NCBI GenBank assembly: GCA_028276305.1
Contig: JAPYWO010000009.1
Span: forward strand, 1 to 12,439
Length of the DNA: 12,439 bases
Direction of reading: 5' to 3'
From: Candidatus Thermokryptus sp.
GTDB taxonomy: Bacteria > Bacteroidota > Ignavibacteria > Kryptoniales > Kryptoniaceae
Shown here: positions 1 to 12,439 of the stretch, piece by piece
How the letters are laid out: each line of letters opens with the position of its first letter
Numbering within the stretch: position 1 is the stretch's first letter
The notes under the pieces: model-generated
What the model was told of the DNA's origin: nothing
The model's database searches: none
The model's input: the letters and a program-made list of their open reading frames with translations, nothing else
Translations under genes and position numbers: made by a program

Positions 1-119
1 CCGCAACTAACATAGCAGAGTTCACATCCGATGCATTTCTCGACGATAATAGTTGGATACCAGGGGATATCTTTCCTAGGAATCCCGTGCCAAGTTTGAT
101 TTGATAAATCCTTTGCCAT
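1..119 (-). CDS. 4Fe-4S ferredoxin family protein (N-terminal part, cut by window edge)
   Basis: Only the first 39 codons are visible. They read from an ATG at 119 with a strong AGGAGG Shine-Dalgarno site (complement of 127-134). The protein carries a WHGIPRKDIPWYP segment followed by C29-x2-C32-x2-C35-x3-C39, the classic ligand pattern of one [4Fe-4S] cluster. Small ferredoxins with this leader are known electron carriers in redox or metal-handling clusters. The gene lies downstream of the porin gene in the same direction, after a 118-bp gap. That gap holds nothing recognisable besides the ribosome binding site. The partner and full length are unknown because the gene leaves the window. Confidence 0.8.
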   Translation of the reverse strand, partial: MAKDLSNQTWHGIPRKDIPWYPTIIVEKCIGCELCYVSC

Positions 120-237
120 TTTGTTTACCTCCTAAATATTTATAAAATATATGGATTTATTTTACACTTAATTTTTTCTTATTCGTAATCCTTTTCTTCT
201 TATCTTTTCTACAAATTTTGTCAGCCATTGACTTTAA

Positions 238-1647
238 TCATTCCTTTGGTTTAATCTTTTTCTCCGCAGTCCATTGATAAAGCATTTGGAAAGCAAACCA
301 GGTCGAACTTTTCGCATTATGATTATTTATGGGTCGAAGGTCTCCGGGAATAAAATAACCGAAAATACTAATTATCTGGAGTTGTTTTGATACTTGATAA
401 TTAAAATAGAGATTAAATTCATTACCCAAAAAGTGTTTGCCTTCTTGCAATTTCATCGTTCCAAGCAAAGTAACATCATCGGGCACCGGAATATAAAACC
501 AATGGAAATTAGTCTCAATTCTCATATTTTTAATAGGGAAAAAGTGAATCAAAATTTCTCTATCATCCAGATTTGACCAGGATGTAATATTCATCCAACC
601 ATAGTACTGGTCTTTAGAACCAAACGCGAAGTCGAATGTTTTTATCTTACTGTCAGAATTTTTCCCTCCCGAGGCATAGCTTTCTCTAATTGCAAATATT
701 GGGTTAGCAGGGATAAAATAAAATTGGTAACCTAATTTCCCAACAATTCCGAAAGCATCTATCGATTTGCCATTTTCCTTGCCAAACTCTTTCACCATTG
801 TAAAGTCATAAACAAAGTGATGAAAATCATTATTGAATAGCCTCAGTCCAATCCATTGCCTTGTAAAGTTGAATGTATTTGCATATGGAGCCGAGCCGGG
901 TTTTTTAATGGCATAGAAAGGTTCGAAAGAAGAAATTTTAGCCCAATCGTAATGGGCATATAAACCGCCACCCCAAAATTCTGTTTTGGTGAATGGTATT
1001 GATATTCTTTCGGGGTCGTGAATTTTTGTCCCACCAGCAAAGACATCAATAAAATTGGATTTATTTTTGTAAGAAATTTTGAAAGCATCCCAAGTCCAAC
1101 GACCAGTGTTTCCCCAGTCCCCGGGTCCAAATATTCGATTATCACCATAAGCTATTTTTTGTCTCCCGAATGTAAATGTCAAATTTTTTAAAGCTTCGCG
1201 GAGGGATAAATATAAATCGTGAATTTCAAAAAATTCCTCATTAGGATTCATTATGTAATAAGGCTCTTTCGTATTCTTGGCTCTGACTTTAAATGCATCG
1301 GGATATTTCGCATTTCGTAAAGACCAGCCAAAGGCACGAGAATCTTGCAGATGGAAGGAAATATTGAACCAAGGGATAGGACGCAAATTAATGCCGGCAA
1401 TGACCCTTTGTAAAAGCATTTTATCATTAAGAGAACCAATAGCATTTGGGCTGTCGTCTCCATAATTTTTTACATTCATCCCGTTCCAAAGCTCAAAACG
1501 CTCACGGATTCTTACATCAAATTCTATCTTTGATGAATCAATTTGTGCTGATAATTTTACACTATTAATTATGGCAAGGAGAAAAAGAATGTAGATGATT
1601 TTAGTTATTGTCATATGTTTTCTTATTTTAACACGATATGGTAACAT
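238..1647 (-). CDS. Alginate-export-family outer membrane channel protein
   Basis: This 469-residue protein has an N-terminal signal peptide with hydrophobic core IIYILFLLAII and a likely cleavage after LSAQ (about residue 35). The mature part shows the alternating aromatic pattern of an outer-membrane beta barrel and ends in a basic tail. An early RIRERFELWNGMN segment, and an FGRQKIAYGDNRIFGPGDW segment in the first half followed by a W-x-W-D-A-F motif, match what I know of the alginate-export (AlgE-like) porin family. In this phylum such porins are not restricted to alginate, so the substrate is open. Start choice is uncertain: the first ATG has AAAAGG upstream, but Met12 (position 1614) would give a more usual signal peptide. 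It follows the TauE gene after a 259-bp gap and probably has its own promoter (1711-1738). Confidence 0.75.
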   Translation of the reverse strand: MLPYRVKIRKHMTITKIIYILFLLAIINSVKLSAQIDSSKIEFDVRIRERFELWNGMNVKNYGDDSPNAIGSLNDKMLLQRVIAGINLRPIPWFNISFHLQDSRAFGWSLRNAKYPDAFKVRAKNTKEPYYIMNPNEEFFEIHDLYLSLREALKNLTFTFGRQKIAYGDNRIFGPGDWGNTGRWTWDAFKISYKNKSNFIDVFAGGTKIHDPERISIPFTKTEFWGGGLYAHYDWAKISSFEPFYAIKKPGSAPYANTFNFTRQWIGLRLFNNDFHHFVYDFTMVKEFGKENGKSIDAFGIVGKLGYQFYFIPANPIFAIRESYASGGKNSDSKIKTFDFAFGSKDQYYGWMNITSWSNLDDREILIHFFPIKNMRIETNFHWFYIPVPDDVTLLGTMKLQEGKHFLGNEFNLYFNYQVSKQLQIISIFGYFIPGDLRPINNHNAKSSTWFAFQMLYQWTAEKKIKPKE

Positions 1648-1710
1648 AAAATTAAAACCTTTTCAAAATCAAACTTCATTAATTTTCATTTTAGCTACAA
1701 AGAGCGGATG

Positions 1711-1738
1711 TTTAAATTGCCTGTCGTTGCGTAGTCAA
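1711..1738 (-). promoter_or_regulatory. Candidate promoter for the alginate-export-type gene
   Basis: On the minus strand TTGACT (1738-1733) and TTTAAA (1716-1711) are separated by 16 bases, a sigma-70-like pair with a weak -10. It sits about 64 bp upstream of the porin start. The rest of 1648-1906 holds no gene that I can support. This is pattern matching only. Confidence 0.3.
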
Positions 1739-1906
1739 GAAATCCAACGAAAAAAGAGTACAATAAATACAAAATGTGCGTTAGCTGAAGTCTTTTCGGG
1801 GCGAAGCCAAGCGATAAACCAGCGTTTTGTGTGTAATATTATCTGTCATTTGATTTTGTCATCGTTACAAGCAAAGTGGCTTTGAAAGTATCCAAGTATA
1901 ACTTTT

Positions 1907-2656
1907 TCATAACACACCCCAAATTAATTTTATAGCGATTCCTAAAAGAACAACAGCATAAATTTGTTTTACCAATTTCGGTTTTGCTTTTTCAGACATA
2001 AATGTTGCTCCAAGTTGTGATCCAAAAATAATTGCGATAACGGCAAAAATAGTTAAAGTCCAATTCATTTGTCCTTTTGCTGCGTGCCCTAAATATCCAC
2101 TTAATGACGAGAAGGTTACAACGAAAGCGGTAGTAGCTGCAGCTTCTTTAGTTTTATATCCCATCCACATCAAAATTGGGGCGATAATAAATCCACCGCC
2201 GATGCCAAGTAATCCACCGATGAATCCTGCGAACGCTCCAACTCCGGCTCCAATAATTGATCTTTTCTTAAATGGCATAATTCTTTCAGGCTCTTTTTGG
2301 GTTGAAGCCCAAAGCGTTCTGCCTGCGGCGACAACAACTGCAAGAGCAAATAAAAGTGTCAATGGTTTTTCTGGGACAAATTTAGATGTATATGCACCGA
2401 TAGGAGAAAAAATTAATGCTGCAATTGCCATTGCGAATCCGCCTTTCCAATCAACTAATTTTTTTCTTGAATAAGGAATGAGCGCAAGAAGTGTGTTCAA
2501 TCCATTTAACAATAAACCTAAGGGAATTGCTACTTCCTTCATTGAAAAACCAGCCCATTTAAGAATTGGTACATAAACCATTCCACCGCCCAATCCAAGC
2601 ATTGCAAAGACGAAAGAAACTAAAAATAATAATATTGATATTATTAGGTATAACAT
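1907..2656 (-). CDS. TauE/SafE family sulfite/anion exporter-like membrane protein
   Basis: This is a 249-residue hydrophobic protein with about eight membrane segments. It has the two repeated halves of the TauE/SafE family, each with the glycine signature: GLGGGMVYVP at about residues 21-30 and GGLLGIGGG at about 147-155. Family members move sulfite, sulfoacetate, taurine-related or other anions across the inner membrane; many are uncharacterised. I chose the ATG at 2656, where the first membrane helix begins. It lies 19 bases past the stop of the FmdE gene, though it has no clear Shine-Dalgarno site. An alternative GTG at 2713, overlapping the FmdE gene by 38 bases, would add 19 polar residues. 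Tight spacing indicates co-transcription with the upstream genes. The transported anion cannot be told from sequence. Confidence 0.85.
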   Translation of the reverse strand: MLYLIISILLFLVSFVFAMLGLGGGMVYVPILKWAGFSMKEVAIPLGLLLNGLNTLLALIPYSRKKLVDWKGGFAMAIAALIFSPIGAYTSKFVPEKPLTLLFALAVVVAAGRTLWASTQKEPERIMPFKKRSIIGAGVGAFAGFIGGLLGIGGGFIIAPILMWMGYKTKEAAATTAFVVTFSSLSGYLGHAAKGQMNWTLTIFAVIAIIFGSQLGATFMSEKAKPKLVKQIYAVVLLGIAIKLIWGVL

Positions 2657-2675
2657 AATTTTTACTATTATTTTT

Positions 2676-3305
2676 TCACTCGATATTTGGTAAATGAATG
2701 ATTGCTTCTTCACCTGTTCTTCCAGAACAGGGAATACAGACTATCTTTCCATCTTTAACTCGTAAATATCTTTCAAAAACATACTCGCCACATACTTCAC
2801 ACTTGGCTTTGTTAAAAGCTTCTTTAACAGGAGTGTATTTGAAATCCTTTAATATAGTTACATTAAAGAGTTCATCGTTAGATGCATTAAGAACGATATC
2901 AATAATATCCTTTCTGACACTTTCCGGTATTTCAGTTGGTTCAATTCCTTGTTTGCGATACTTAAAAAATTCGTGTGGTGCGAGCTTATCTTGGAATTCA
3001 CTTTTAAGTGAAATCCTAACAGCATCTTTTTTACCTGGATACCAAAAGATAGCTGCAACTTTGCCGTAGTTCAATTTCTCAATCATTCCTTTTCCGAATG
3101 TCGCACCTGTTGCAGCCATAATTCCATCCTGCATACAACCTTGCGGGTGCCCAATACCCATTTCAGAAAATACATGCATTTCATGATTTAAACTTTTTTT
3201 AACACCTAATATTTCCATTGCCAAAGTTCCCATTCTGAAACCGATTGGCATAAATGGGCAACGATGGCCGTGAAATTCGAAAGTCCATTCTGGTAACTGA
3301 AACAT
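2676..3305 (-). CDS. FmdE family protein with C-terminal zinc-knuckle-like domain
   Basis: This 209-residue protein starts at an ATG with a good site (AAGGAGAC). The N-terminal two thirds match the FmdE family, named after subunit E of formylmethanofuran dehydrogenase. Visible family features are the F-x-H12-G-H14-R-C16-P motif and G-H53-P-Q-G-C57-M-Q-D60-G, which bind metal in known members. The C-terminus carries C169-x2-C172 and C190-x2-C193, a zinc-ribbon or knuckle seen in many FmdE proteins. FmdE homologues are widespread in bacteria that make no methane, often beside molybdenum or anion transport genes; their reaction is mostly unknown. Here it lies 25 bp after the NifX-like gene and just before the TauE gene, so the three look like one operon. 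Confidence 0.85.
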   Translation of the reverse strand: MFQLPEWTFEFHGHRCPFMPIGFRMGTLAMEILGVKKSLNHEMHVFSEMGIGHPQGCMQDGIMAATGATFGKGMIEKLNYGKVAAIFWYPGKKDAVRISLKSEFQDKLAPHEFFKYRKQGIEPTEIPESVRKDIIDIVLNASNDELFNVTILKDFKYTPVKEAFNKAKCEVCGEYVFERYLRVKDGKIVCIPCSGRTGEEAIIHLPNIE

Positions 3306-3330
3306 ATTTAGTCTCCTTATTTTATTTTTT

Positions 3331-3738
3331 TTAATGTAATTTATCTGTGTAATTTATTATTGTTCCGTTGATGACTGCTTGAATTGCTTCATCAATATTC
3401 CTTATATCCGTTATTATAGGTTTGATATTTAACTGAAGCATACTTTGGTAAGCACCACTCCCCATTCCACGTGCAAGTAAAATCTGGCAATCTTTAATTG
3501 CCTCTGCCATACTGATGTGTTTAGAATGTGAATGTTCATCAAATCCATGTTGCTCATCTGAATGATGATGTTTTCTATGTGCAAAGTTATGATGACTAAG
3601 TTTTTCGCGACGTTCTCTTTTAACTACCTTGCCGTTTTCAACAGTAAACACTTCATAAAATTTTGCTCTGCCGAAATGCTGACTGATCGTTACTCCATCA
3701 TCTGTAACTACTGCGATTTTGATTGTTTGGCTTTCCAT
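3331..3738 (-). CDS. NifX/NifB-type dinitrogenase iron-molybdenum cofactor family protein, His-rich
   Basis: This 135-residue protein belongs to the dinitrogenase iron-molybdenum cofactor biosynthesis family (a small ribonuclease-H-like fold). Signs are the IAVVTDDG start, QHFGRAKFYEVFTVENG, and the DCQILLARGMGSGAYQ segment with the conserved glycine turn. In nitrogen fixers the fold carries FeMo-co or its precursors. Stand-alone members like this one occur widely and are thought to bind metal clusters, with unclear roles. Between about residues 48 and 74 there is an insert with ten histidines in 27 residues, likely a metal-binding loop. The start has AGGAG eight bases upstream. A TetR-type operator lies 24 bp upstream of the start codon, so it is probably the first gene controlled by that regulator. 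Confidence 0.85.
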   Translation of the reverse strand: MESQTIKIAVVTDDGVTISQHFGRAKFYEVFTVENGKVVKRERREKLSHHNFAHRKHHHSDEQHGFDEHSHSKHISMAEAIKDCQILLARGMGSGAYQSMLQLNIKPIITDIRNIDEAIQAVINGTIINYTDKLH

Positions 3739-3762
3739 TTTTTTCTCCTTTTATTAAGTTAT

Positions 3763-3780
3763 TAAGTAATCGTTTACTTA
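3763..3780. promoter_or_regulatory. Operator for the TetR regulator upstream of the NifX-like gene
   Basis: TAAGTAA and TTACTTA form a perfect 7-bp inverted repeat around TCGT. Exactly the same 18 bases recur at 4421-4438 upstream of tetR. Size, symmetry and position fit a TetR-dimer operator. The short distance to the NifX-like gene suggests repression of that operon. Confidence 0.8.
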
Positions 3781-3799
3781 CCTATATTTTAAAAAAATT

Positions 3800-4402
3800 T
3801 TATTTCTTTTCTAATACTTTTTTAATCAAGCGAATCATATTCTCACAAAATTTCTCTTGCTTTTGTGCATCTGGATTGAGAGTCATTTCAATGTTTAACA
3901 AAACAGGGATTCCCATATAAAGTGTAGCTACATTATCAATATCTAGTGAATCGTTCCAAACTCCTTCATTCATTCCTTGTTTAATTATTTTTCTTATATA
4001 TTCTTTTTGAGTAAGAAGTATTTCGCGTAAACTTTTCTTTAGTTGTTGATCATTCAAGTGTGCAGCTTCTGAAAATAAAAGTATTGTTATGCCTTTATTT
4101 TCAATAAGATAGGTAATGTGGACACAAAGAAACTTAAATAATTTTTCTTCTGCACTCAAATCAGAAGAGAAAGTTATTTTTTCCTGTTCAGAAAGAAGTT
4201 CCTTTTTTACATCGTCAAGAATAGAAAGCATTATTTCTTTTTTTGACGAAAAATGTCGAAAGAGAGCTCCCTCTGTCACACCAATTTTAGAAGCTAAATT
4301 TCTTATAGAAAGTTTACCAATACCTTCAGTTGAAATAATTTCTAATACAGCTTCCTTAATCTGTTCTTTTCTTGTATCCGTGTCTAATCTTTCAGTTGCC
4401 AT
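3800..4402 (-). CDS. TetR/AcrR family transcriptional regulator
   Basis: This 200-residue protein is of normal length for the family. The N-terminal DNA-binding domain is clear: after STEGIGKLSIRNLASKIGV comes TEGALFRHFSSKKEIM, the canonical TetR recognition helix and turn (residues about 31-57). The remaining helical C-terminal part would hold the ligand pocket and dimer face; its ligand cannot be inferred. The gene is directly upstream of the NifX-like gene in the same direction. Identical 18-bp palindromes precede both, one 18 bp before this gene's ATG, so autoregulation plus control of the downstream operon is the simple reading. A sigma-70-like promoter (4470-4443) ends just before its operator. 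The ribosome binding site is weak (AAAGAAAGAAG). Confidence 0.9.
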   Translation of the reverse strand: MATERLDTDTRKEQIKEAVLEIISTEGIGKLSIRNLASKIGVTEGALFRHFSSKKEIMLSILDDVKKELLSEQEKITFSSDLSAEEKLFKFLCVHITYLIENKGITILLFSEAAHLNDQQLKKSLREILLTQKEYIRKIIKQGMNEGVWNDSLDIDNVATLYMGIPVLLNIEMTLNPDAQKQEKFCENMIRLIKKVLEKK

Positions 4403-4420
4403 TCTTCTTTCTTTAATAAT

Positions 4421-4438
4421 TAAGTAATCGTTTACTTA
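4421..4438. promoter_or_regulatory. Operator for the TetR regulator in its own promoter
   Basis: This is the second identical copy of the 18-bp palindrome TAAGTAA-TCGT-TTACTTA. It begins four bases downstream of the -10-like CATAAT of the tetR promoter, so it would cover the transcription start. That geometry fits repression by blocking RNA polymerase. Confidence 0.8.
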
Positions 4439-4442
4439 CTAA

Positions 4443-4470
4443 ATTATGATTTTTTTTTTAAAAAATGCAA
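4443..4470 (-). promoter_or_regulatory. Promoter of the tetR gene
   Basis: On the minus strand TTGCAT (4470-4465) and CATAAT (4448-4443) are 16 bases apart, with a run of A residues in the spacer. The TetR operator starts four bases further downstream. The arrangement of promoter, operator and start codon makes this a credible promoter, though the -10 is not perfect. Confidence 0.5.
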
Positions 4471-4766
4471 GTATTTTTAGAACCACTGCCTGGGAGCTGG
4501 TTATAACGTGCCCAGTTTTACTTTTAGATGAAACAGGCATTGAAAAGCGAAATAAGGGTTTTGTTTAGTTTGCAATACGCTACTTGTAGCTTTCTGGTAG
4601 CCTTCAGGTTCTTTAAGTTCTCTTTCCATAGCCCACGACTCCTTGGCGTGCATTCTTCTGTTGCACATAAGATTTTTTCCGTGCGTTCCCCAGCACATAA
4701 AAGCTTTCTATTCCTCTTATCTCGTGCCATAGCCACAATCTATAACACATTTGCGTATAATACACT
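4471..4766. other. Gene-free stretch, richer in G+C than its flanks
   Basis: These roughly 300 bases lie between the tetR promoter and the end of the broken Fic gene. Short open frames exist on both strands but overlap one another, lack ribosome binding sites, and give peptides I do not recognise. The stretch is visibly less AT-rich than its neighbours. It is bounded by GTTATAAC (4500-4507) and CTATAACACAT (4740-4750). It could be a decayed gene, a cassette remnant or a structured RNA; I cannot decide. Confidence 0.4.
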
Positions 4767-5266
4767 TTACACAAAATCATCATCTCTGCCCTCAACTATC
4801 TTTATTATGCTATCAAAAATATACTCCGCTGGTCTTCTACCTTCGGATGGTCTATAAAGGCGGATCAGTCCTGCGTCAAGCAAATTTTTTATTATGTTGT
4901 TGGCGGTAATCCTGTTGGGTAAGCCTGCCATTTGAATAAAGTTAGTGGTGCTTAGAATAGGTTGTCTAAAAAAGGCATCAAGGGCTGGGATGGCGTATTG
5001 AGACCGTGTTGCCTGTATGAACTTTTCTTTCATTTGGGTATATAGGTTAAAGGTTGCTTGGGTGCCTTCAATCCTGCTTGATAGAACTGCCTCCCTTGTG
5101 GTAAGGGGTGCAAGAAGAATGTCTGGGTTTGGTAGCCAGTGGAGTTTGCCATCAAAACGGGCGATTTCTCTGTTTGCGGTGCTGATCTTTGATATAAAGG
5201 GCTTCAACTTTAATTTTCCTGGTGGATACTCAAAGGGTATGTAAGGTTCGAGCTTGCTTACTGCAT
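4767..5266 (-). pseudogene. Fic family protein remnant, catalytic domain deleted and start frameshifted
   Basis: The reading frame joins the two ends of a Fic protein. The first part (IPFEYPPGKL through REAVLSSRIEGTQATF) is the Fic N-terminal region with the inhibitory S-x3-E-G motif. It runs directly, at about 5048, into MKEKFIQATRSQYAIPALDAFF and a C-terminal winged helix ending GRRPAEYIF. The roughly 200 residues between, with the catalytic HPFxDGNGR motif that transfers AMP to target proteins, are missing. Full-length relatives have about 370 residues; about 160 remain. The homologous frame continues upstream to 5273 without an ATG. The only nearby ATG (5266-5264) is out of frame by one base and hits a stop two codons on, so one base was probably lost there. 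A TTG at 5207 could still start a 146-residue product. Probably inactive. Confidence 0.75.
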
Positions 5267-5334
5267 ATCCGTTTTAATATTTCGCTTAGAAATTGACAAT
5301 GTGACTTTTTCTTTTATTGGCTTATTTTTGCTGG

Positions 5335-6210
5335 CTATAATGTCTCTTCGTAGGATTGCTTAATTAAACTAAATATATAATCTACATCGCTTTCTTTGTC
5401 AATTTTAACTAATCCCTTGTATCCCCATTCAAAAGATGTAATATCTTTTACTAACTTTTTGGGATCGTCATATTTTGGGGATCGCAAAAGCAAGTTTATA
5501 GAATTTTTCTTAAAATCAAAGCGACAAAAACTTTTAGTTGTCTTGTAGGTGACGCCATTTTTCTGTTCTGCTTTCTCTTGAACATTTGGCAATTCTAAAA
5601 TCCTCTCCCTAATCTCATAAAATTTTTGTCTTAGCTCTTTTGAGGTTTTATTGAGGTGGTAATTTAAATCGTGGTTTGCATATTCTACTTTTGTTATCCG
5701 TTTCCCTTTCTTGTTCTCTGCTTGTGAACTTCCTTCAATGTTGATCTCAAAAATTCCATTCTCATAAAGAGCATAGGTCCAAAGTTCTATGTTTTCTGAC
5801 ATTCTATTTATGGCGTATTTATCATATTTACTGAAAGATCGGGCAATTAAAATGAGTCGTGGTTGACTCCAATCTATTTTTATTTTCTTCCCCAATTTCT
5901 TTTCAACAGCAACTTGAAAATCACCTTTATGGTCAACCAACCAATCAAGATAAAACAAACCTTGATTTATGACACTTTCACTTTCACCCCATTTATACTC
6001 AATGATAACTGGTGAATTATTTTCATCTAATCCCAAAGTGTCAATCCTACCGCCGTGTTTTTCGCCAGTTGGAAATTCAGAGGCGATAAATTTGATTCCA
6101 AAAATCTCCTCTAAATTATTTTCAATTAAAGTTTGTAATTCTTTTTCGTTCTTAAAATTAGTGGTTTTAAGTTGCTTTATTTTATTGTTATAAATTTGGA
6201 AGATGGGCAT
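5335..6210 (-). CDS. DUF5655 domain protein with PD-(D/E)XK nuclease-like N-terminus
   Basis: This 291-residue protein starts with a region typical of DUF5655 proteins: MPIFQI, then LIENNLEEIFGIKFI. Next come GRID57TLGLDENNSPVIIE71YK73, matching the D-(x)n-E-x-K core of the PD-(D/E)XK nuclease fold, and a following Q83. The C-terminal part (from about residue 176, NHDLNYHL) is the DUF5655 domain proper. Related proteins are common in bacterial accessory regions and are often annotated as hypothetical or endonuclease NucS-like; no function is established to my knowledge. It stands alone, with the broken Fic gene behind it. A good promoter lies at 6305-6277, about 65 bp upstream. No Shine-Dalgarno site is visible before the ATG. 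Nuclease activity is an inference from the motif. Confidence 0.75.
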   Translation of the reverse strand: MPIFQIYNNKIKQLKTTNFKNEKELQTLIENNLEEIFGIKFIASEFPTGEKHGGRIDTLGLDENNSPVIIEYKWGESESVINQGLFYLDWLVDHKGDFQVAVEKKLGKKIKIDWSQPRLILIARSFSKYDKYAINRMSENIELWTYALYENGIFEINIEGSSQAENKKGKRITKVEYANHDLNYHLNKTSKELRQKFYEIRERILELPNVQEKAEQKNGVTYKTTKSFCRFDFKKNSINLLLRSPKYDDPKKLVKDITSFEWGYKGLVKIDKESDVDYIFSLIKQSYEETL

Positions 6211-6276
6211 AGTTTTTAATTAAGCATTTCTTTTTAAAACTTTGTATTGCAAAATTTTGCCTGCTTTTACTATTGT

Positions 6277-6305
6277 AGTATATGAAATTTTTAAATGAAG
6301 GTCAA
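6277..6305 (-). promoter_or_regulatory. Promoter of the DUF5655 gene
   Basis: On the minus strand TTGACC (6305-6300) and TATACT (6282-6277) are exactly 17 bases apart, each one base from the sigma-70 consensus. Transcription would start near 6270 and give a leader of about 60 bases. Confidence 0.6.
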
Positions 6306-6453
6306 GGATTTAATAAAATTGACTTTACCCATTTTATTTTAAAGTTTTTTAAAACGAAAAATGAAATTGCAAAGGAGAAATAAGGGTTTTTGTGGGGAAT
6401 GTAAAGATGAAAATTTTTGTAGAGAGATGGAGGAAAAATTTTCAAAGGACCCA

Positions 6454-6488
6454 CTCACCCTTGCCCTCCTCCCGCAGAGTGGAGAGGG
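6454..6488. repeat. REP-like GC-rich repeat, copy 1
   Basis: CTCACCCTTGC is followed by CCTCCTCCCGCAGAG and TGGAGAGGG. The CCCTC and GAGGG ends can pair into a hairpin. A near copy lies at 6519-6552. Together they occupy the right half of a gap with no credible gene (6306-6586). Similar CTCACCC...GAGAGGG elements are common dispersed intergenic repeats in many genomes. Confidence 0.6.
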
Positions 6489-6518
6489 AAGAAAGATGAA
6501 AAGATTTAAACAATAGCC

Positions 6519-6552
6519 CTCACCCTTGCACTCTCCCGCGGGGTGGAGAGGG
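6519..6552. repeat. REP-like GC-rich repeat, copy 2
   Basis: This second copy has the same CTCACCCTTGC start and a CTCTCCCGCGGGGTGGAGAG core that folds on itself. It lies 35 bp past the stop of the secreted-protein gene and might stabilise or end its transcript, but no U-tract follows. Confidence 0.6.
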
Positions 6553-6586
6553 TAGATAAAGGGAGAGAAGGGAATGAAAAAAGAAT

Positions 6587-7891
6587 TTACTTAACTAAAA
6601 CCATCTTGTTTGTCTTCGTAAAATATGGCGTTTGTAAAGTATAAAAATAAACACCACTTGGCAAACCGCTTGCATCAAATTTGACATCATAGCGACCGGG
6701 CTCCTGCTCATCATTTACCAAAGTGGCAACCTCCTGACCAAGTATGTTGTAAATGGATAACTTAACTCTTGATCTAACGGGTAAATCATAAGATATCGTG
6801 GTTGATGGATTGAATGGGTTGGGGTAGTTTTGGTGGAGTGCAAATTTTGTGGGAATTTCAGGTTCTGGTTTTGTAGAAGTTACTTTGTCTTTAATTCTAA
6901 AAATTTTAAGTAGATCGTCTTCGTAGTAAAAAACTGTTAAATATATATTACCATCAAATCTCATAAACCTTGCCACCCCCCTACCATCCAAAATCAAAGA
7001 ATCAACTAATGTAATTCTACTATACTCAAACTTGTACAATTTGCACAATTCACTAGAAGAAAAAACAACATACCCATAACTTTCATTTAACATTATCACA
7101 TCTCCAGATATGAAATTGCTTGGTCCATTTATCAATTTTTTTCTGGAAACAAGAGTAAATGATGGGATTTCAAAAATGTATAAATCACCGTTCCCTGCTA
7201 TTAAAATTATATTGGAAACGATATCACCACCTATTATCATATCATCATCTACTGGTTCTTTCATGAAAAAATTTGCTTTATAATCATTATTTCCTAGCAT
7301 ATAGTATCCAGCTATAATTGTGTAATTGTTATTATAAAAAGGCGGTGAAACTCCAAATCCAATCAAAATTGTATCATTAAATAAAAATACTCTTCCTCCA
7401 CCAATAACCCACTGAAATGTTGCAACTTTTTTAAAGGAATTGAAATTATTATAATATAGGTAACCATCAGCTGAGTTTATAAGCAGGGCTGCCCAATTCC
7501 AAGATTCAGGTAAAATTACCTCTCTTATATTACTAAAAGTGCTCCCTACGGGAATTTGATCCGTGATATCAGCTAAAGAATCTTTAGTTATATCATATAA
7601 TACAACATGCGAAGTTCTAGCAGTATCTCTATACCCAATAATAATTCCATTTTCCCATCTTCCACTACCTTTAACCGAATACACCTCGCCAAATTTTCTT
7701 CTTAATTTTGTATCGCTCAACAAAATCTCTCCTCTACTCCAATCAATAATCAACCACTTGTTATTAATGTAATACACGTGGCCCATTGAGCCCATTGATT
7801 CTTCTATTATTTTTTCAACAATCATTTCCTTACTGTGAATTGTTTGAGCATAAGAAAAAATACTGCTTATAAGAATTAAGATGAACAACAT
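6587..7891 (-). CDS. Secreted protein with type IX secretion sorting domain
   Basis: This 434-residue protein begins with a signal peptide (MLFILILISSIFSYAQ). It ends with a type A type IX secretion sorting domain from about residue 346: FALHQNYPNPFNPSTTISY, then YNILGQEVATL, then GLPSGVYFYTL and a basic MVLVK end. In Bacteroidota-type bacteria this domain directs export across the outer membrane and is normally cleaved on secretion. The region between (about residues 20-345) has repeated short beta-strand segments with aromatic residues, suggestive of a beta-propeller, but I do not recognise a family. I chose the ATG at 7891, which has AGAGGTGA at ideal spacing, rather than an upstream GTG at 7900. 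It lies 49 bp after the preceding gene in the same direction. Confidence 0.85.
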   Translation of the reverse strand: MLFILILISSIFSYAQTIHSKEMIVEKIIEESMGSMGHVYYINNKWLIIDWSRGEILLSDTKLRRKFGEVYSVKGSGRWENGIIIGYRDTARTSHVVLYDITKDSLADITDQIPVGSTFSNIREVILPESWNWAALLINSADGYLYYNNFNSFKKVATFQWVIGGGRVFLFNDTILIGFGVSPPFYNNNYTIIAGYYMLGNNDYKANFFMKEPVDDDMIIGGDIVSNIILIAGNGDLYIFEIPSFTLVSRKKLINGPSNFISGDVIMLNESYGYVVFSSSELCKLYKFEYSRITLVDSLILDGRGVARFMRFDGNIYLTVFYYEDDLLKIFRIKDKVTSTKPEPEIPTKFALHQNYPNPFNPSTTISYDLPVRSRVKLSIYNILGQEVATLVNDEQEPGRYDVKFDASGLPSGVYFYTLQTPYFTKTNKMVLVK

Positions 7892-7940
7892 AAAAATCAC
7901 CTCTTGAATTAAGTTTAAGTTTTTAATTTTTAGTTACTGC

Positions 7941-9470
7941 TTATTTTAACTGGATAGTTACTCCTTCATCAGGTAAGTATATGGATTCAGCTTTCTTTGT
8001 TTCCTTATTATATTTATTATAGAACACCCATATTGTAATTTCAGATTTATCGGGATACTCAAATTTAATTCCTATATTTGTTTTTATATACTTATTTTTA
8101 TTAGCATTATCTATTAATACCTCTTTTTCTTGCCCACCATTAATTTGAGTAGTTGTAGGATATGTAACATTACTAATAGTAGTAGTTACAGGATTATTAG
8201 AATTATTTTTAATTTTTAAATAAATTTCGCTTGTTGAACTTGCATCAACAATGTGGATCTTTGCATTAAATGTTGCGGTTTTGGGGGTGCCTTGGCCAGT
8301 GTACTCGCTCGTTGTTTTTGGAATCAAAACTGCGGATCTTGGAGTTAAATTAAATGTTAAAGTTTCTTCTACCATATCAGTTGAGGTTGAATTATTATTT
8401 TGATAGCCATTTTCATCATAATCTTGATGGCATGTAAATCTTATTTGCAGTGTATCACCATCAAAGGCATTATTATCTACTGATTTTATTATATTCTTGA
8501 ATAGATTTTTTGTCAAGTATCTACCACCACCTATATCAGTGGATGAGCCAAAGAGGTTTTGAATATATAAACTGCTTATAAGTTTTTGTTTAGGTTGAGA
8601 TAGTGGCATAGTTAAAAATTTGAGCAATCTAACTTTTATCTTTTCGTCTTTTTGCAAGATTAAATCAGTAGTGGTTAAGTTTAAATTTTGTAAAGCTGAG
8701 CTTGGAATTTTCATTACTCCGCTCCAAATAATTTCACTTGTTAAGTTAGTCCAATTTGTCCATTCATCAATTTTTGTACTTGTAGTAAATGCCACGCTGC
8801 AAACATCGTCATCGCTTAAGCCATAAAATGGATTGTAAGTAAGTTTGCCATTAGAATTTTTAAGAAAATCGCTAAATGGTTTGAATTCTTCTGTTGTTGT
8901 AACTGCAAAAATATAATAATTTTCTGAGTCAATTTGAGTAGTTTTTGTAGCGGTGTCGTATTTTGTATTAATTGAAAGATTTATTTTTGGTGGAGGTGGA
9001 AGGTATATAAGCGGTACATTGACTATTGTTGTAGAACTAAAGCCTGGTTTTGTAATTTCTTCTTCGCTTCCGTCTTTTACTGCTTTTCCTTTAAATACTA
9101 ATGTATAAGTTGCATATTTTGTTCTTCCCTGGCAACCACTTGGATCAAAATAGCAAAGATTTGGGAAAGAAAAGATAACATTAGGATAAAGCGGGTCAGT
9201 ATCATCAACATCTGCTCCTATTTTTGTGATATTTCTATTGTAGATATTCTTAAATTCAGATAGTGTTGAAGTATTAACTATCCACGAATTATTTCCTGGT
9301 GTTTGTATTTTAGTTTTCCACCATGGAGCTGGAAATGTAGCAGGACCTCCTCCGTGTGTAGTTGGCTGTGTTCCTTCAATAGGTTTTCCACGCCAAGATC
9401 CCCACTCTAACCACCTTGACTTAGAAAAGTTTTGGGGTTTCGTCAAGTAAATTTGTTTAAAATAGTTCAA
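7941..9470 (-). CDS. Protein of unknown family, Thr/Asn/Ser-rich, TTG start
   Basis: I do not recognise this 509-residue protein. It is rich in threonine, asparagine, serine and aromatic residues, in beta-strand-like runs. It has a GGGPATFPAPWW segment near the start, a NLCYFDPSGCQGR cysteine pair at about residues 105-115, and a proline stretch (LPPPPK). Such composition is usual for extracellular or surface proteins, yet no signal peptide and no type IX sorting domain are seen. The start is deduced: a TTG at 9470 sits seven bases after a perfect GGAGG, whereas the frame has no ATG in its first half. It lies 70 bp downstream of the replication-initiator-like gene and 49 bp upstream of the type IX-secreted protein, so the three may share a transcript. 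An N-terminally truncated secreted protein is an alternative. Confidence 0.65.
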   Translation of the reverse strand: MNYFKQIYLTKPQNFSKSRWLEWGSWRGKPIEGTQPTTHGGGPATFPAPWWKTKIQTPGNNSWIVNTSTLSEFKNIYNRNITKIGADVDDTDPLYPNVIFSFPNLCYFDPSGCQGRTKYATYTLVFKGKAVKDGSEEEITKPGFSSTTIVNVPLIYLPPPPKINLSINTKYDTATKTTQIDSENYYIFAVTTTEEFKPFSDFLKNSNGKLTYNPFYGLSDDDVCSVAFTTSTKIDEWTNWTNLTSEIIWSGVMKIPSSALQNLNLTTTDLILQKDEKIKVRLLKFLTMPLSQPKQKLISSLYIQNLFGSSTDIGGGRYLTKNLFKNIIKSVDNNAFDGDTLQIRFTCHQDYDENGYQNNNSTSTDMVEETLTFNLTPRSAVLIPKTTSEYTGQGTPKTATFNAKIHIVDASSTSEIYLKIKNNSNNPVTTTISNVTYPTTTQINGGQEKEVLIDNANKNKYIKTNIGIKFEYPDKSEITIWVFYNKYNKETKKAESIYLPDEGVTIQLK

Positions 9471-9540
9471 TGCGAAACCTCCGTTTGAAATGTGATTTTC
9501 TAATGCAATTATAAAAAATTTATTTTTAAATGTCAATAAG

Positions 9541-10554
9541 TTAAAGTTTGATGATTAGGTCTATTTCTGCGAGTATGCCACATTTTGAGCAAGGGAGAGA
9601 GTATTTACCGCCTACTTTTAGTTCAGCAATTCCTTTATGATTACATGACTTACAGGTTATAAGGACTGGGACTGAATCGCCTTTCTTTTTGCCTCTGATA
9701 AATCTATAAAATTCGTTGTGTATTAGATACCTGTCTTTTAGGATTTTAAGTAAAAGTTTAAATGGGTGTGATACGAGTTTGTATTTATACCTGTAGTTGA
9801 TAAGGTCCATAACAAAGAGGACTCTATCAATTCCGAATTTATCAATAAGGGGTTGAATGTTGATATTGGAGAATAAGCCCTCTCCCTTAGTGATGATTTC
9901 TTTTTGAGCGGGTTGGGGTTTGATTGAGTTGTCAACATCATCATCGTTTTTTCGGGATGATGATGATTTTTGTTTTTCTTCTTTAATATGGTTTTTCTTA
10001 GGTTTTTGCTTTTTTCGTTTAACTTTTTGATTTTTAATTGATTTATTCGGTTTTGCTGTTTGATTTTGTCCGTGTGGCGGACAAATTACTTTATTTTGTC
10101 CGTCTGGTGGACAAATTCCCTCGTTGCAATTGTGGATAACTTCAGATTGAGTTTCAGTTGTTTTGCCATTGTTTTTGTGGTTATCGTAGTAATTCACATT
10201 GAGTTCCCAAATATCAACAATCTCATAAACATTTTTGGGTCTTCCTCGCTTGCCTTTTTTAGTTCCTGCTGGTTTGATAAGACCGAGATTTAAGAGTTTC
10301 TGGAGTGATTTTTGGATGCGATATTTACTTACCTTCATTTTACCAGCAAGGTATCGGATAGAAGCCCAACATTGCCCGTTGTCTCCGGCGATTCGTTTGA
10401 TGTGGATATAAAGCATCTGGTCGTAGATGTCAAGTTCGGGGTGATCAAGGATAATGTTTGGGGTTGCTGTGAAATACTTTCGGTTTGGCTGGAATGGGAG
10501 ATGGTATTGAGAAATTTGACTTTTACTGCAATTATTATTATTTTGTAATTGCAT
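9541..10554 (-). CDS. Replication-initiator-like protein (winged helix plus zinc ribbon)
   Basis: The 337-residue protein has three parts. Residues about 45-115 form a winged helix (WASIRYLAGKMKVSKYRIQ, then LLNLGLIKPAG and a basic wing KKGKRGRPKNVYEI). Residues about 120-225 are low-complexity, with two copies of ICPPxGQN followed by a very basic and serine/aspartate-rich linker. The C-terminus carries C301-x2-C304 and C322-x2-C325, a zinc ribbon. This plan resembles replication initiators of plasmids and phages (for example RepA_N or DnaD-related types), but I cannot name a family. Support comes from context: inverted repeats and a DnaA box inside the gene, and divergent partition genes. 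The ATG at 10554 has AAAGGTGA five bases upstream; a GTG at 10563 would lie inside that site. A promoter is at 10664-10636. A generic regulator is the alternative. Confidence 0.6.
   Translation of the reverse strand: MQLQNNNNCSKSQISQYHLPFQPNRKYFTATPNIILDHPELDIYDQMLYIHIKRIAGDNGQCWASIRYLAGKMKVSKYRIQKSLQKLLNLGLIKPAGTKKGKRGRPKNVYEIVDIWELNVNYYDNHKNNGKTTETQSEVIHNCNEGICPPDGQNKVICPPHGQNQTAKPNKSIKNQKVKRKKQKPKKNHIKEEKQKSSSSRKNDDDVDNSIKPQPAQKEIITKGEGLFSNINIQPLIDKFGIDRVLFVMDLINYRYKYKLVSHPFKLLLKILKDRYLIHNEFYRFIRGKKKGDSVPVLITCKSCNHKGIAELKVGGKYSLPCSKCGILAEIDLIIKL
10065..10115. repeat. Two 21-bp inverted repeats, 30-bp period, inside the rep-like gene
   Basis: TTTGTCC-(7)-GGACAAA occurs at 10065-10085 and again at 10095-10115, exactly 30 bp apart. 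The arms are perfect in both copies. They encode the repeated ICPPxGQN peptide of the initiator-like protein. Same-face spacing of about three helical turns, perfect dyads and a nearby DnaA box fit initiator-binding iterons of an origin lying inside its own gene. Confidence 0.65.
10131..10139 (-). promoter_or_regulatory. DnaA box
   Basis: The minus strand reads TTATCCACA, the strict consensus DnaA box, 15 bp from the inverted repeats within the rep-like gene. A single perfect nine-mer could occur by chance (roughly one in ten windows of this size), but its position beside the dyads is suggestive. Confidence 0.45.
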
Positions 10555-10635: not shown

Positions 10636-10664
10636 AATTTAATTTTTGTTGAGAAAAATGTCAA
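10636..10664 (-). promoter_or_regulatory. Promoter of the rep-like gene
   Basis: On the minus strand a consensus TTGACA (10664-10659) is followed after 17 bases by TAAATT (10641-10636). Transcription would begin near 10629, giving a leader of about 75 bases that includes the hairpin at 10609-10588. Confidence 0.5.
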
Positions 10665-10728
10665 GTGGGTGGGGGTTAAATTAAATGTATTTTGCTCTAC
10701 CCTATCGTTTGTCCTTTTAATTTTTTTG

Positions 10729-10756: not shown

Positions 10757-10828
10757 ACGGAAAAAATTTCCGACGGAAAAATTTTCCGATGGAAAAATAT
10801 ACCGGTGGAAGAATTTTCCGCTGTAAAG
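10757..10828. repeat. 72-bp array of 16-bp palindromic units, copy 1
   Basis: Four 16-bp units lie head to tail: ACGGAAAAAATTTCCG, ACGGAAAAATTTTCCG, ATGGAAAAATATACCG and GTGGAAGAATTTTCCG, then a partial CTGTAAAG. The first two units are perfect dyads (CGGAAA/TTTCCG); the others are degenerate. It lies between the rep-like gene and the 144-residue gene. The array matches copy 2 at 68 of 72 positions. This looks like a multi-site binding platform for a centromere-binding or initiator protein. Confidence 0.85.
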
Positions 10829-11199
10829 ACGATTAAATTGAGATATAGATTAGAGGGGTTTATTGAGTTAGAAATTTAAGATTTGTGATCTGGTTATTTT
10901 AAGGAAAGGTTAATTTTAGTGCATTAAAAGGAATATGTTAAGTTAAAGTTTTTGATGAGGTTATTTAAATGTTTTTGAAATATGTGAAGTTGATCATGAA
11001 ATTTTAAGTATAAAAATGAGAATTTGCAAAAAAAGGGGAAAATTTTTATTTTTGTGACGATGAAAGGTTTATAGTTATAAAGCATATAATTCGCCTACCG
11101 ATAGGATATATCATTTCCCTACTCCGATATTGCCTACCAAGTATATAAGTTTATTCATAATCAATAGAACGATTTGTTGAAAAACAAAGGAGAGAAGTA
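10829..11199. other. AT-rich gene-free stretch with a candidate promoter for the 144-residue gene
   Basis: No gene is visible in these 370 bases, which are strongly AT-rich. Near the right end GTGACG (11054-11059) and TATAAA (11076-11081) are 16 bases apart, overlapping a second TATAAT at 11085-11090, so a rightward promoter is likely there. Two GCCTACC heptamers (11093-11099 and 11132-11138, each close to a CCGATA) follow at the expected transcription start. They may be an operator for the next gene. The AT-rich part could serve as a DNA-unwinding region, but nothing proves it. Confidence 0.4.
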
Positions 11200-11634
11200 A
11201 TGATCAAAATCAATTTCTCAAAGGGGGATGATGGTATAACTTTATCGGTTGATATAAGTTTCAGTATAGATTATATGAAGTTTACGGAGATACTGGAGGA
11301 TTTAAAGAATAATTATCTGGATAAGGAAAGCGTTAAAATGTATGATTCGGTATGGATGAATGCTAAGTCGTTTATTCCGGAGTCAAAGTTAGGGATTTTA
11401 GGGGTTTATTACTTTGCGATGACAACTATGGCGAATATGCTTATTGAATATATGGGTGATGTTAAGTTATTTGGGGATATAGAAGCGGAGGATTTGAAAA
11501 ATATTTTAAAGGATAGATTCCTGGAGTTTTTCGGTGATGTTGTTGAGAGAGATGTTATTATACTTATTTTGACCCTGATGGCGTTGACGAAGTATGAAAT
11601 CAAATTAGATGGGTTGATGAACATAACCGCATAG
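11200..11634 (+). CDS. Protein of unknown function between the two repeat arrays
   Basis: I do not recognise this 144-residue protein. It has a beta-rich N-terminus (MIKINFSKGDDGITLSVDI), then mostly helical, acidic sequence, a YYFAMTTMANMLIEYMGDV segment in the middle, and a hydrophobic DVIILILTLMAL stretch near residues 117-128. No helix-turn-helix or ribbon-helix-helix is evident and no signal peptide is present. The gene is well formed: AAAGGAGA lies six bases upstream of the ATG, a promoter candidate is further up, and a strong terminator begins eight bases after the stop. Its place between two copies of the 72-bp array, next to parA, suggests a part in replication or segregation of the element. 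That is inference from position only. Confidence 0.75.
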   Translation: MIKINFSKGDDGITLSVDISFSIDYMKFTEILEDLKNNYLDKESVKMYDSVWMNAKSFIPESKLGILGVYYFAMTTMANMLIEYMGDVKLFGDIEAEDLKNILKDRFLEFFGDVVERDVIILILTLMALTKYEIKLDGLMNITA

Positions 11635-11641
11635 CGAATTT

Positions 11642-11675
11642 ACCCGGTCTCAGTGTGGGACCGGGTTTTATTTAT
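11642..11675 (+). terminator. Intrinsic terminator of the 144-residue gene
   Basis: ACCCGGTC (11642-11649) pairs perfectly with GACCGGGT (11659-11666) around a nine-base loop, followed by a T-rich tail (TTTATTTATTTTTG). It begins eight bases after the stop codon and separates this gene from the parA control region. Confidence 0.85.
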
Positions 11676-11694
11676 TTTTGTGTGGGGAGTATCA

Positions 11695-11766
11695 ACGGAA
11701 GAAATTTCCGACGGAAAAATTTTCCGATGGAAAAATATACCGGTGGAAAAAATTTCTGCTGTAAAG
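11695..11766. repeat. 72-bp array of 16-bp palindromic units, copy 2
   Basis: The organisation is the same as copy 1 at 10757-10828: four 16-bp units plus CTGTAAAG, in the same orientation, with only four base differences (one in unit 1, three in unit 4). The array ends 10 bp before the -35 element of the parA promoter. Repeat arrays just upstream of parA are the usual place for the centromere (parC/parS) of type Ib partition systems and also serve as the operator for the partition operon. Confidence 0.85.
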
Positions 11767-11776
11767 TCGCTGGGTC

Positions 11777-11805
11777 TTGACAATTATCATTTTTTTATGT
11801 ATCAT
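11777..11805 (+). promoter_or_regulatory. Promoter of the parA-like gene
   Basis: A consensus TTGACA (11777-11782) is followed after exactly 17 bases by TATCAT (11800-11805). Transcription would start near 11812, about 40 bases before the ATG. The second array abuts it upstream, so a protein bound there could regulate it. Confidence 0.75.
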
Positions 11806-11850
11806 TTAGTGTATCTTTTACATAGTGAGAAAACAAAGAGACACAAGCAA

Positions 11851-12439
11851 ATGATGAAGACGATTGCGGTAATCAACTACAAGGGCGGTGTGGGGAAGAC
11901 GACGATATCAATGTATTTGTCGTCAGCGCTTGTAAGGTTTTTTAACAAGAGGATACTTCTGATAGATATTGATCCGCAGGCGAACGCAACGGAGACGCTT
12001 TTGCCACTTGGGGTAGATGTTAAGAGGATTGGGACGATGAGGGATTTTTTAAATCCGGATAGTGATAGGACATTGGAGTCGTGTATAATTCCATCAAGGA
12101 TAAACGGGATTGATTTGGTGCCGAACGATCCTGATATACTTTTGATTGACGAGAGAATACATGGGGATGAGAACATAATGGTAAAGTTAGCTGAGGCGAT
12201 AAGGAAGTTTGACAGTTTGGAGAGGGTTTCAACTTATGATTTTTGTTTCATTGATTGTCCGCCGTATATATCGCATTATGCTTTGATGGCGCTTCTTGCG
12301 AGTGATTATTATATTGTACCGCTTGAGGCGGATGATTCATTTAGTTTGAATGGGGTTGAGATACTTTCATTTAAGGTGAAGGATATAAAGGAAGTCAACA
12401 AGAAGCTCAGGTTATTGGGTTATGTAATTAACAAGCTTG
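11851..12439 (+). CDS. parA: ParA family partition ATPase (N-terminal part, cut by window edge)
   Basis: The first 196 codons are visible. The protein begins directly with the ATPase domain: deviant Walker A KGGVGKTT (residues 11-18, both signature lysines present), Walker A' LLIDIDPQANAT (36-47), and Walker B FCFIDCPP (131-138, Asp135). No helix-turn-helix domain precedes it, so it is the short type Ib kind or a Soj/MinD-like relative. ParA proteins bind DNA without sequence preference when loaded with ATP and position plasmids or chromosomes together with a centromere-binding partner. The partner gene would be expected downstream, outside the window. The start is one of two successive ATGs (11851, 11854) with only a weak AGAG site upstream. 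A strong promoter and the second repeat array precede it. Confidence 0.9.
   Translation, partial: MMKTIAVINYKGGVGKTTISMYLSSALVRFFNKRILLIDIDPQANATETLLPLGVDVKRIGTMRDFLNPDSDRTLESCIIPSRINGIDLVPNDPDILLIDERIHGDENIMVKLAEAIRKFDSLERVSTYDFCFIDCPPYISHYALMALLASDYYIVPLEADDSFSLNGVEILSFKVKDIKEVNKKLRLLGYVINKL

Follow-up and report, generated by a model that had tools for sequence, protein, structure and literature searches.

Paired 16-bp repeat arrays around a gene of no known family beside parA: candidate centromere and operator sites of a partition module

Two 72-bp repeat arrays enclose ORF144, a gene of no known family, and one of them adjoins a promoter-like site of parA. They are best explained as the centromere/operator of a ParA partition module resembling type Ib, a putative assignment that was made from the sequence and that we hold with about even confidence. 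The window, i.e. the whole stretch of DNA analysed, is the complete contig C366 (12,439 bp). It belongs to an assembly of 390 contigs that is 71.55% complete and may mix strains.

Array 1 (positions 10757-10828, + strand) and array 2 (11695-11766, + strand) each consist of four 16-bp units followed by a final CTGTAAAG. They share their orientation and 68 of 72 bases, and they start 938 bp apart with 866 bp in between. When both intergenic regions were dinucleotide-shuffled 300 times, the best 72-mer match reached 41/72; the first-pass annotation had described the two arrays of four and a half units correctly. A search for the single unit GGAAAAATTTTCC on both strands with up to two mismatches gave 16 matches where 2.2 were expected for the window, and 12 of them fell in the arrays. 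Units 1 and 2 had both been taken for perfect dyads. This was true of unit 2 (12/13 positions, the central base being unable to pair) but not of unit 1, which scored 10/13 in array 1 and less than 10 in array 2. A further perfect dyad, TTTCCGACGGAAA, has its centre where units 1 and 2 meet, so that the phase of the binding unit may differ from the one originally proposed. The sequence adjoining array 1 (10829-11050) is 76.6% A+T.

Between the arrays, ORF144 (11200-11634, + strand) is an intact frame of 144 codons that matched nothing in Pfam at an E-value of 0.1, in agreement with the earlier description of a flanked 144-residue gene without known family. Behind array 2, parA (11851-12439, + strand, cut by the contig end) matched PF13614 with an E-value of 4e-37 and the PHROG 164 ParA-like partition protein with an E-value of 2e-46. 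The Pfam match begins at residue 2 of the 11851 start, and an N-terminal helix-turn-helix domain is absent from this start. A Walker-type ParA that begins with its ATPase domain and has no N-terminal DNA-binding domain of its own is a type Ib trait and favours partition; the C-terminal part of the protein is missing in the window. The position of array 2 points the same way. A gap of 10 bp separates its end from the downstream -35 box of a promoter-like site, TTGACA-17-TATCAT (11777-11805, + strand, 11/12 match), and a repeat array at the par promoter is likewise typical of type Ib. The claim that one array abuts the parA promoter therefore held. The promoter-like site sits between array 2 and the parA start although the reading frame stays open through array 2; this open frame (11653-11850, + strand) is in frame with parA in the window as well as in a second copy on contig C15.

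Each array lies upstream of a + strand gene, and array 2 directly precedes a strong promoter-like site, as would be seen if the arrays were only operators of the parA promoter and of ORF144 and had no part in segregation or replication. We regard such a restriction to regulation as unlikely. Array 1 is 371 bp away from the ORF144 start, and among the promoter-like sites listed there was no strong one on the + strand between array 1 and ORF144, an observation that weakens the partition reading too. Moreover, four and a half tandem units exceed what a simple operator usually needs.

Under the favoured partition reading, we infer that a ParB-like protein would bind the arrays and act in regulation and segregation, as follows. 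This DNA-binding protein, whose gene probably lies downstream of parA and so beyond the end of the contig, would be the partner of ParA and occupy the 16-bp units cooperatively. From array 2, it would control the parA promoter; the ParB-like protein of type Ib systems is described as a regulator of the par operon (PMC3235114). Arrays 1 and 2 would jointly build a partition complex, which ParA would carry across the nucleoid, and ORF144 would probably serve as an accessory of the module, comparable by position to ParC of pMF1. This reading is weakened by the fact that the window and C15 contigs both stop inside parA, before any ParB-like gene, and no continuation of the last 200 bases of the window was found in the assembly. 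It is also weakened by the plasmids that carry a related parA: among four fetched of 15 listed, only one has a six-copy repeat array upstream of parA (about 0.9-1.1 kb away, with a gene in between), and the other three gave two-copy repeat matches or none in the 301-701 bp searched. Four viral ParA relatives with 30-36% identity were noticed as well.

The block of rep, array, ORF144, array, and parA recurs in diverged form on C15 of the same assembly. As evident from the comparison of the two copies, array 1 is identical at 69 of 72 positions and array 2 at 71 of 72, and the parA promoter region (11767-11850) at 83 of 84. Identity was 86.7% for rep, 96.1% for ORF144, 96.1% for the first 128 bp of parA, and 92.8% for the spacer 10829-11050, which also contains a 42-bp gap and two single-base gaps. 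The C15 rep carries one in-frame TGA; that the block on C15 keeps its arrays despite this internal stop favours partition. So does the finding that the arrays changed less than rep (4/144 versus 134/1008 differences, Fisher P 5e-5). On the other hand, the arrays are not significantly better conserved than the neighbouring spacer (4/144 versus 16/221, P 0.10), which detracts from the argument. Seven array positions vary. Three of them separate array 1 from array 2 in the window and on C15 alike, implying that the array duplication is older than the split of the element copies; of the others, three are private to C15 array 1 and one to window array 2. The proposed duplication of a whole array is in line with this pattern, and recent conversion within the element, which had also been suggested, is not needed to explain it.

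A third copy of rep lies on C210, a 3858-bp contig with 2.6 kb upstream of the gene. Neither a unit with up to two mismatches nor ORF144 nor parA was found on this contig. The arrays thus accompany ORF144-parA in both of two copies but rep in only two of three, which favours sites of the par genes over sites of rep. Iterons would accompany rep; here, the C210 rep is array-free on its contig, and on C15 the arrays are kept beside an interrupted rep. As a side observation on C15, the translations of the genes behind the second element copy (locus L004, 4634-9451) resemble by eye a type I restriction-modification system.

A wide occurrence of the unit across the host genome, away from any parA, would have spoken against a module function. 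When the 23-mer GGAAAAATTTTCCGATGGAAAAA was searched with up to three mismatches in the 390 contigs (72% complete), all 10 matches fell in the four arrays, two per element copy, and a genome-wide dispersed repeat was rejected on these grounds. The arrays might still be regarded as a palindromic repeat of REP or MITE type without function in the module, because the units are palindromic and are implied inside the genes of the P0080 protein family treated below. We consider this very improbable: the assembly contains only four arrays, found at corresponding positions in the two copies of the module, and both copies retain them although rep has diverged further.

The search of related genomes for the unit that had been recommended earlier yielded, among the matches listed, nothing comparable to the arrays. 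With a 76-bp array query and up to 15 candidates scored per genome, the best listed E-value in 60 related genomes was 2e-5, compared with 1.4e-23 or lower for the four arrays. The 2e-5 match (43 bp, 84%, genome G036) covers about 1.5 units in apparent coding sequence and was read as a chance match in A+T-rich sequence. The same was concluded for weak matches on contig C274 and in genome G006, both of which lie in one gene that by eye resembles malic enzyme. The exact 23-mer GGAAAAATTTTCCGATGGAAAAA was absent from the collections of genome contigs and viral contigs, and two adjacent palindromes were absent from the viral contigs; these collections may omit the window's own genome. Searches with the array unit returned one match of E 0.8 in plasmids and one of E 0.9 in phages, and Rfam gave no match at its gathering score.

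The relatives of ORF144 form 31 clusters including the window's own. All are 144 residues long, and the others are 92-97% identical to it. Between the window and C15, dN was 0.025 and dS was 0.11, which suggests that the sequence of ORF144 is under purifying selection. Its predicted structure was too poor for use (mean pLDDT 42). ORF144 relatives were found neither in 60 related genomes (E 0.001) nor in viral contigs nor in phages, and a tblastn search of 72,556 plasmid records also found none (E 0.1). A PHROG tail-protein match (E 0.009) that covered only residues 100-115 was weak and was taken as chance. Two ORF144 clusters, P0029 and P0031, are labelled pantothenate kinase by a source, a label to which the family searches lend no support.

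ORF144 is followed by an intrinsic terminator-like hairpin (11642-11666, + strand) of 11 pairs, 7 of them G-C, with a T-rich tail. Its leader (11051-11199) is identical at 147 of 149 positions between the window and C15 copies; of the measured stretches above 100 bp, none is better conserved. By eye, the leader has repeated GCCTACC and CCTATCG words, and CCTATCG/CGATAGG and GCCTACC words recur in two highly conserved intergenic blocks, 10700-10715 and 11090-11140, where they are possibly a second operator.

The rep-like gene (9541-10554, - strand) is divergent from ORF144 and parA. Its product resembles initiators of phage O/DnaD type, with matches to PF13730 (E 6e-10) and to PHROGs replication initiation families (best E 1e-16). 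A promoter-like site, TTGACA-17-TAAATT, precedes it (10636-10664, - strand, 10/12 match); the TTGACA of this site was also seen by eye upstream of the C210 rep. Rep relatives were absent from 60 related genomes (E 0.001), genome contigs, plasmids, and phages, and viral contigs contained one 30% match (L051).

The gene contains candidate sites of its own. The window has just one perfect DnaA box, TTATCCACA, which lies inside rep (10131-10139, - strand); the two one-mismatch matches lie in rep and in ORF144. Two copies of the dyad TTTGTCC-N7-GGACAAA follow on the - strand at 10095-10115 and, 30 bp on, at 10065-10085. GTTATCCACA and two dyads 30 bp apart are present in all three rep copies; the dyad reads TTTGTCC-N7-GGACAAA in the window and on C210 and TTGTCCA-N5-TGGACAA on C15. 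Judged from these sequences, the in-gene dyads and the DnaA box (10065-10115 and 10131-10139) are probably the origin of the element.

At the protein level the dyads correspond to hexapeptides (CPxxGQ, CSxxEQ, FSxxEK), both arms of which tend to change together across homologous Rep proteins. Units that fit x[PS]xx[GE][QK] were counted in clusters P0032-P0079; other units stayed uncounted, and P0042, P0047, P0048, P0052, P0074, and P0075 gave no linker with a slightly looser pattern. Among the 89 units, the inner pairs were S..E (59), P..G (25), P..E (3), and S..G (2), and the outer pairs were C..Q (64), R..Q (11), F..K (8), C..K (4), L..Q (1), and V..Q (1), the outer pair not being kept in 17 of 89. 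In the 21 distinct hexapeptides the inner pairs numbered 11, 6, 2, and 2 (Fisher P 0.018). The in-gene dyads and their co-changing arms fit an origin inside the gene, and thus the 16-bp arrays need not be sites of Rep. The idea that the arrays are iterons of the window's own Rep is weakened by these dyads and by the array-free C210 contig. That rep has in-gene sites of its own, and that the only perfect DnaA box is there and none is near the arrays as an iteron origin would have it, again favours partition. Co-changing repeat arms also suggest that in-gene initiator origins could be found from protein databases alone.

A different initiator must nevertheless be weighed. The C-terminal domain of Rep is common to P0080-P0086 of an initiator-like family (P0080-P0087). 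For most Rep clusters, the match to P0080 reaches 48-51% and covers about one-third of P0080, and BLAST aligned nothing beyond this domain between Rep and P0080-P0086. The winged-helix part is duplicated in P0084-P0087. The linker of the family reads NF[RH]W[KR][KN][FL]PxE[KN]xS, and array 2 translated in its open frame gives IFRWKNIPVEKISAV. Six of the eight members were tested for the unit peptide with 300 shuffles per protein, P0086 being left out as a near-duplicate of P0085 and P0087 because it is without the region. The peptide was present in all six in one fixed reading of the array, the same frame that stays open through array 2, with ungapped BLOSUM62 scores of 52-69 compared with 50 or less in shuffles, although these six proteins are homologous and hence not independent. 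The window's own Rep (P0032), P0049, and P0059 scored at chance level. By codon arithmetic, the P0080-family peptide implies array units 16 bp apart inside the genes of that family, and it predicts palindromes resembling GGAAAA(A)TTTTCC there.

These findings weaken the partition reading, because a unit inside initiator-like genes fits iterons too. The arrays could be the iterons of a second initiator of P0080/P0084 type that has the same units inside its own gene, in which case the additional copies, those not in that gene, would serve to titrate or handcuff the initiator or would be a second origin. We hold this to be a possible, if clearly minority, explanation. It draws on the peptide in six of six proteins, the matching 16-bp spacing, the C-terminal domain shared by most Rep clusters and P0080, and the A+T-rich stretch beside array 1. 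It would also gain from a coincidence of contig sizes: P0087, a P0084-like fragment, and the ORF144 cluster P0009 are known from one contig each, in both cases 10747 bp long, so that a P0084-like gene may sit on the same element. Contig sizes coincided in 0.4% of trials of a crude post hoc jitter model, and five longest-contig sizes are common to ORF144 and Rep clusters, the window's own included; we treat the coincidence as a lead and not as a finding. However, the one perfect DnaA box lies within rep and not next to the arrays, the in-gene dyads of the window's Rep are different, and Rep, P0049, and P0059 are at chance level for the unit peptide. No P0080-type gene was found in the assembly contigs (72% complete) beyond the C-terminal similarity of their three reps. 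A model of P0084 had a mean pLDDT of 52, was better in two winged-helix regions and at the C-terminal end, and matched nothing in the PDB at E 0.001.

Both functions might also be combined. A single initiator of P0084 type with tandem winged helices, its gene following parA, would then use the 16-bp unit as in-gene origin and as centromere/operator, with ORF144 as accessory. On the present sequences this seems improbable; if true, it would be a simple natural case of one initiator and one site serving replication and partition. Between the split centromere and the iterons that the first-pass annotation had offered, the promoter-like site, the C15 copy, and the array-free C210 rep thus tilt the balance to partition, and the P0080-family peptide leaves the iterons some weight.

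Partition by arrays on both sides of a gene, which had been called an unusual layout, is less so than claimed, since pMF1 and pSM19035 have several ParB-binding arrays. In the parCAB system of the Myxococcus plasmid pMF1, as described, ParB-bound iterons flank the operon and also occur within a replication-associated ORF, and an unknown gene, parC, precedes parA and encodes a protein that raises ParB binding (PMC3235114). Both cases have an ORF of unknown family before parA, repeats near the par genes and towards the replication region, and, for the window putatively, type Ib character. They differ in that pMF1 has a three-gene operon with its iterons outside, whereas in the window the unknown gene and parA are separated by array 2 and have terminator- or promoter-like signals of their own, the likeness of ORF144 to parC being one of position. 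The pMF1 iterons inside a replication-associated ORF also mean that units inside a replication gene do not alone prove iterons of replication.

In the delta-omega-parS system of pSM19035, short contiguous repeats form several arrays that reach into the promoters of copS, delta, and omega and act as centromere and operator; at least four contiguous repeats are reported to be needed for full activity (PMC9499535). The repeats there are 7-bp non-palindromic heptads bound by a ribbon-helix-helix ParB, in contrast to the 16-bp, largely palindromic units here. In Deinococcus radiodurans, direct repeats upstream of parAB (cisII/cisMP) are reported as both ori and parS (PMC7671480). The location upstream of par genes is shared, but cisII/cisMP contain putative DnaA boxes, whereas the two arrays described here have no adjoining perfect box. 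The lambda-type origin has its iterons inside the O gene (PMC7466680), which is comparable to the in-gene dyads and DnaA box of the window's rep and to the unit implied inside the P0080-family genes, but the 16-bp arrays of the window are outside rep. The archaeal pNOB8 system has the gene order aspA-parB-parA, a winged-helix binder, and one 23-bp palindrome (PMC5120986). It resembles the present module in having a ParA and a palindromic putative centromere nearby, a winged-helix binder being only a guess here, and differs in its single palindrome, gene order, and archaeal host. The arrangement in the window has known parallels, but its make-up is new. Should partition be the right reading, the known ParA modules would gain one in which a conserved gene of no known family stands between two separate arrays; the elements that carry it have a rep and an ORF144 that match nothing in the plasmid and phage collections searched.

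The rest of the window contributed some minor observations. Positions 1-9540 were compared with six genomes of the same genus, up to 40 candidates being scored per genome, and all but one (2167-2233) of the matches listed fell within 6559-6861, a stretch made up of the C-terminal region of a secretion-tail protein and the sequence just downstream. The intergenic stretch 6430-6560 has CCCTCACCCTTGC...GGAGAGGG-like words of a dispersed repeat, with 77-89% matches on C221, C279, C202, C165, C257, C63, and C206. A 146-residue frame at 4767-5207 (- strand) contains only the N-terminal domain of Fic/DOC proteins (PF13784) and is perhaps a remnant. Directly after rep, a perfect promoter match, TTGACA-17-TATAAT, was noted at 9508-9536 (- strand). 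The stretch 9483-9540 matches C210 at 88% right after the C210 rep, where by eye another gene seems to follow, which suggests exchangeable cargo behind rep.
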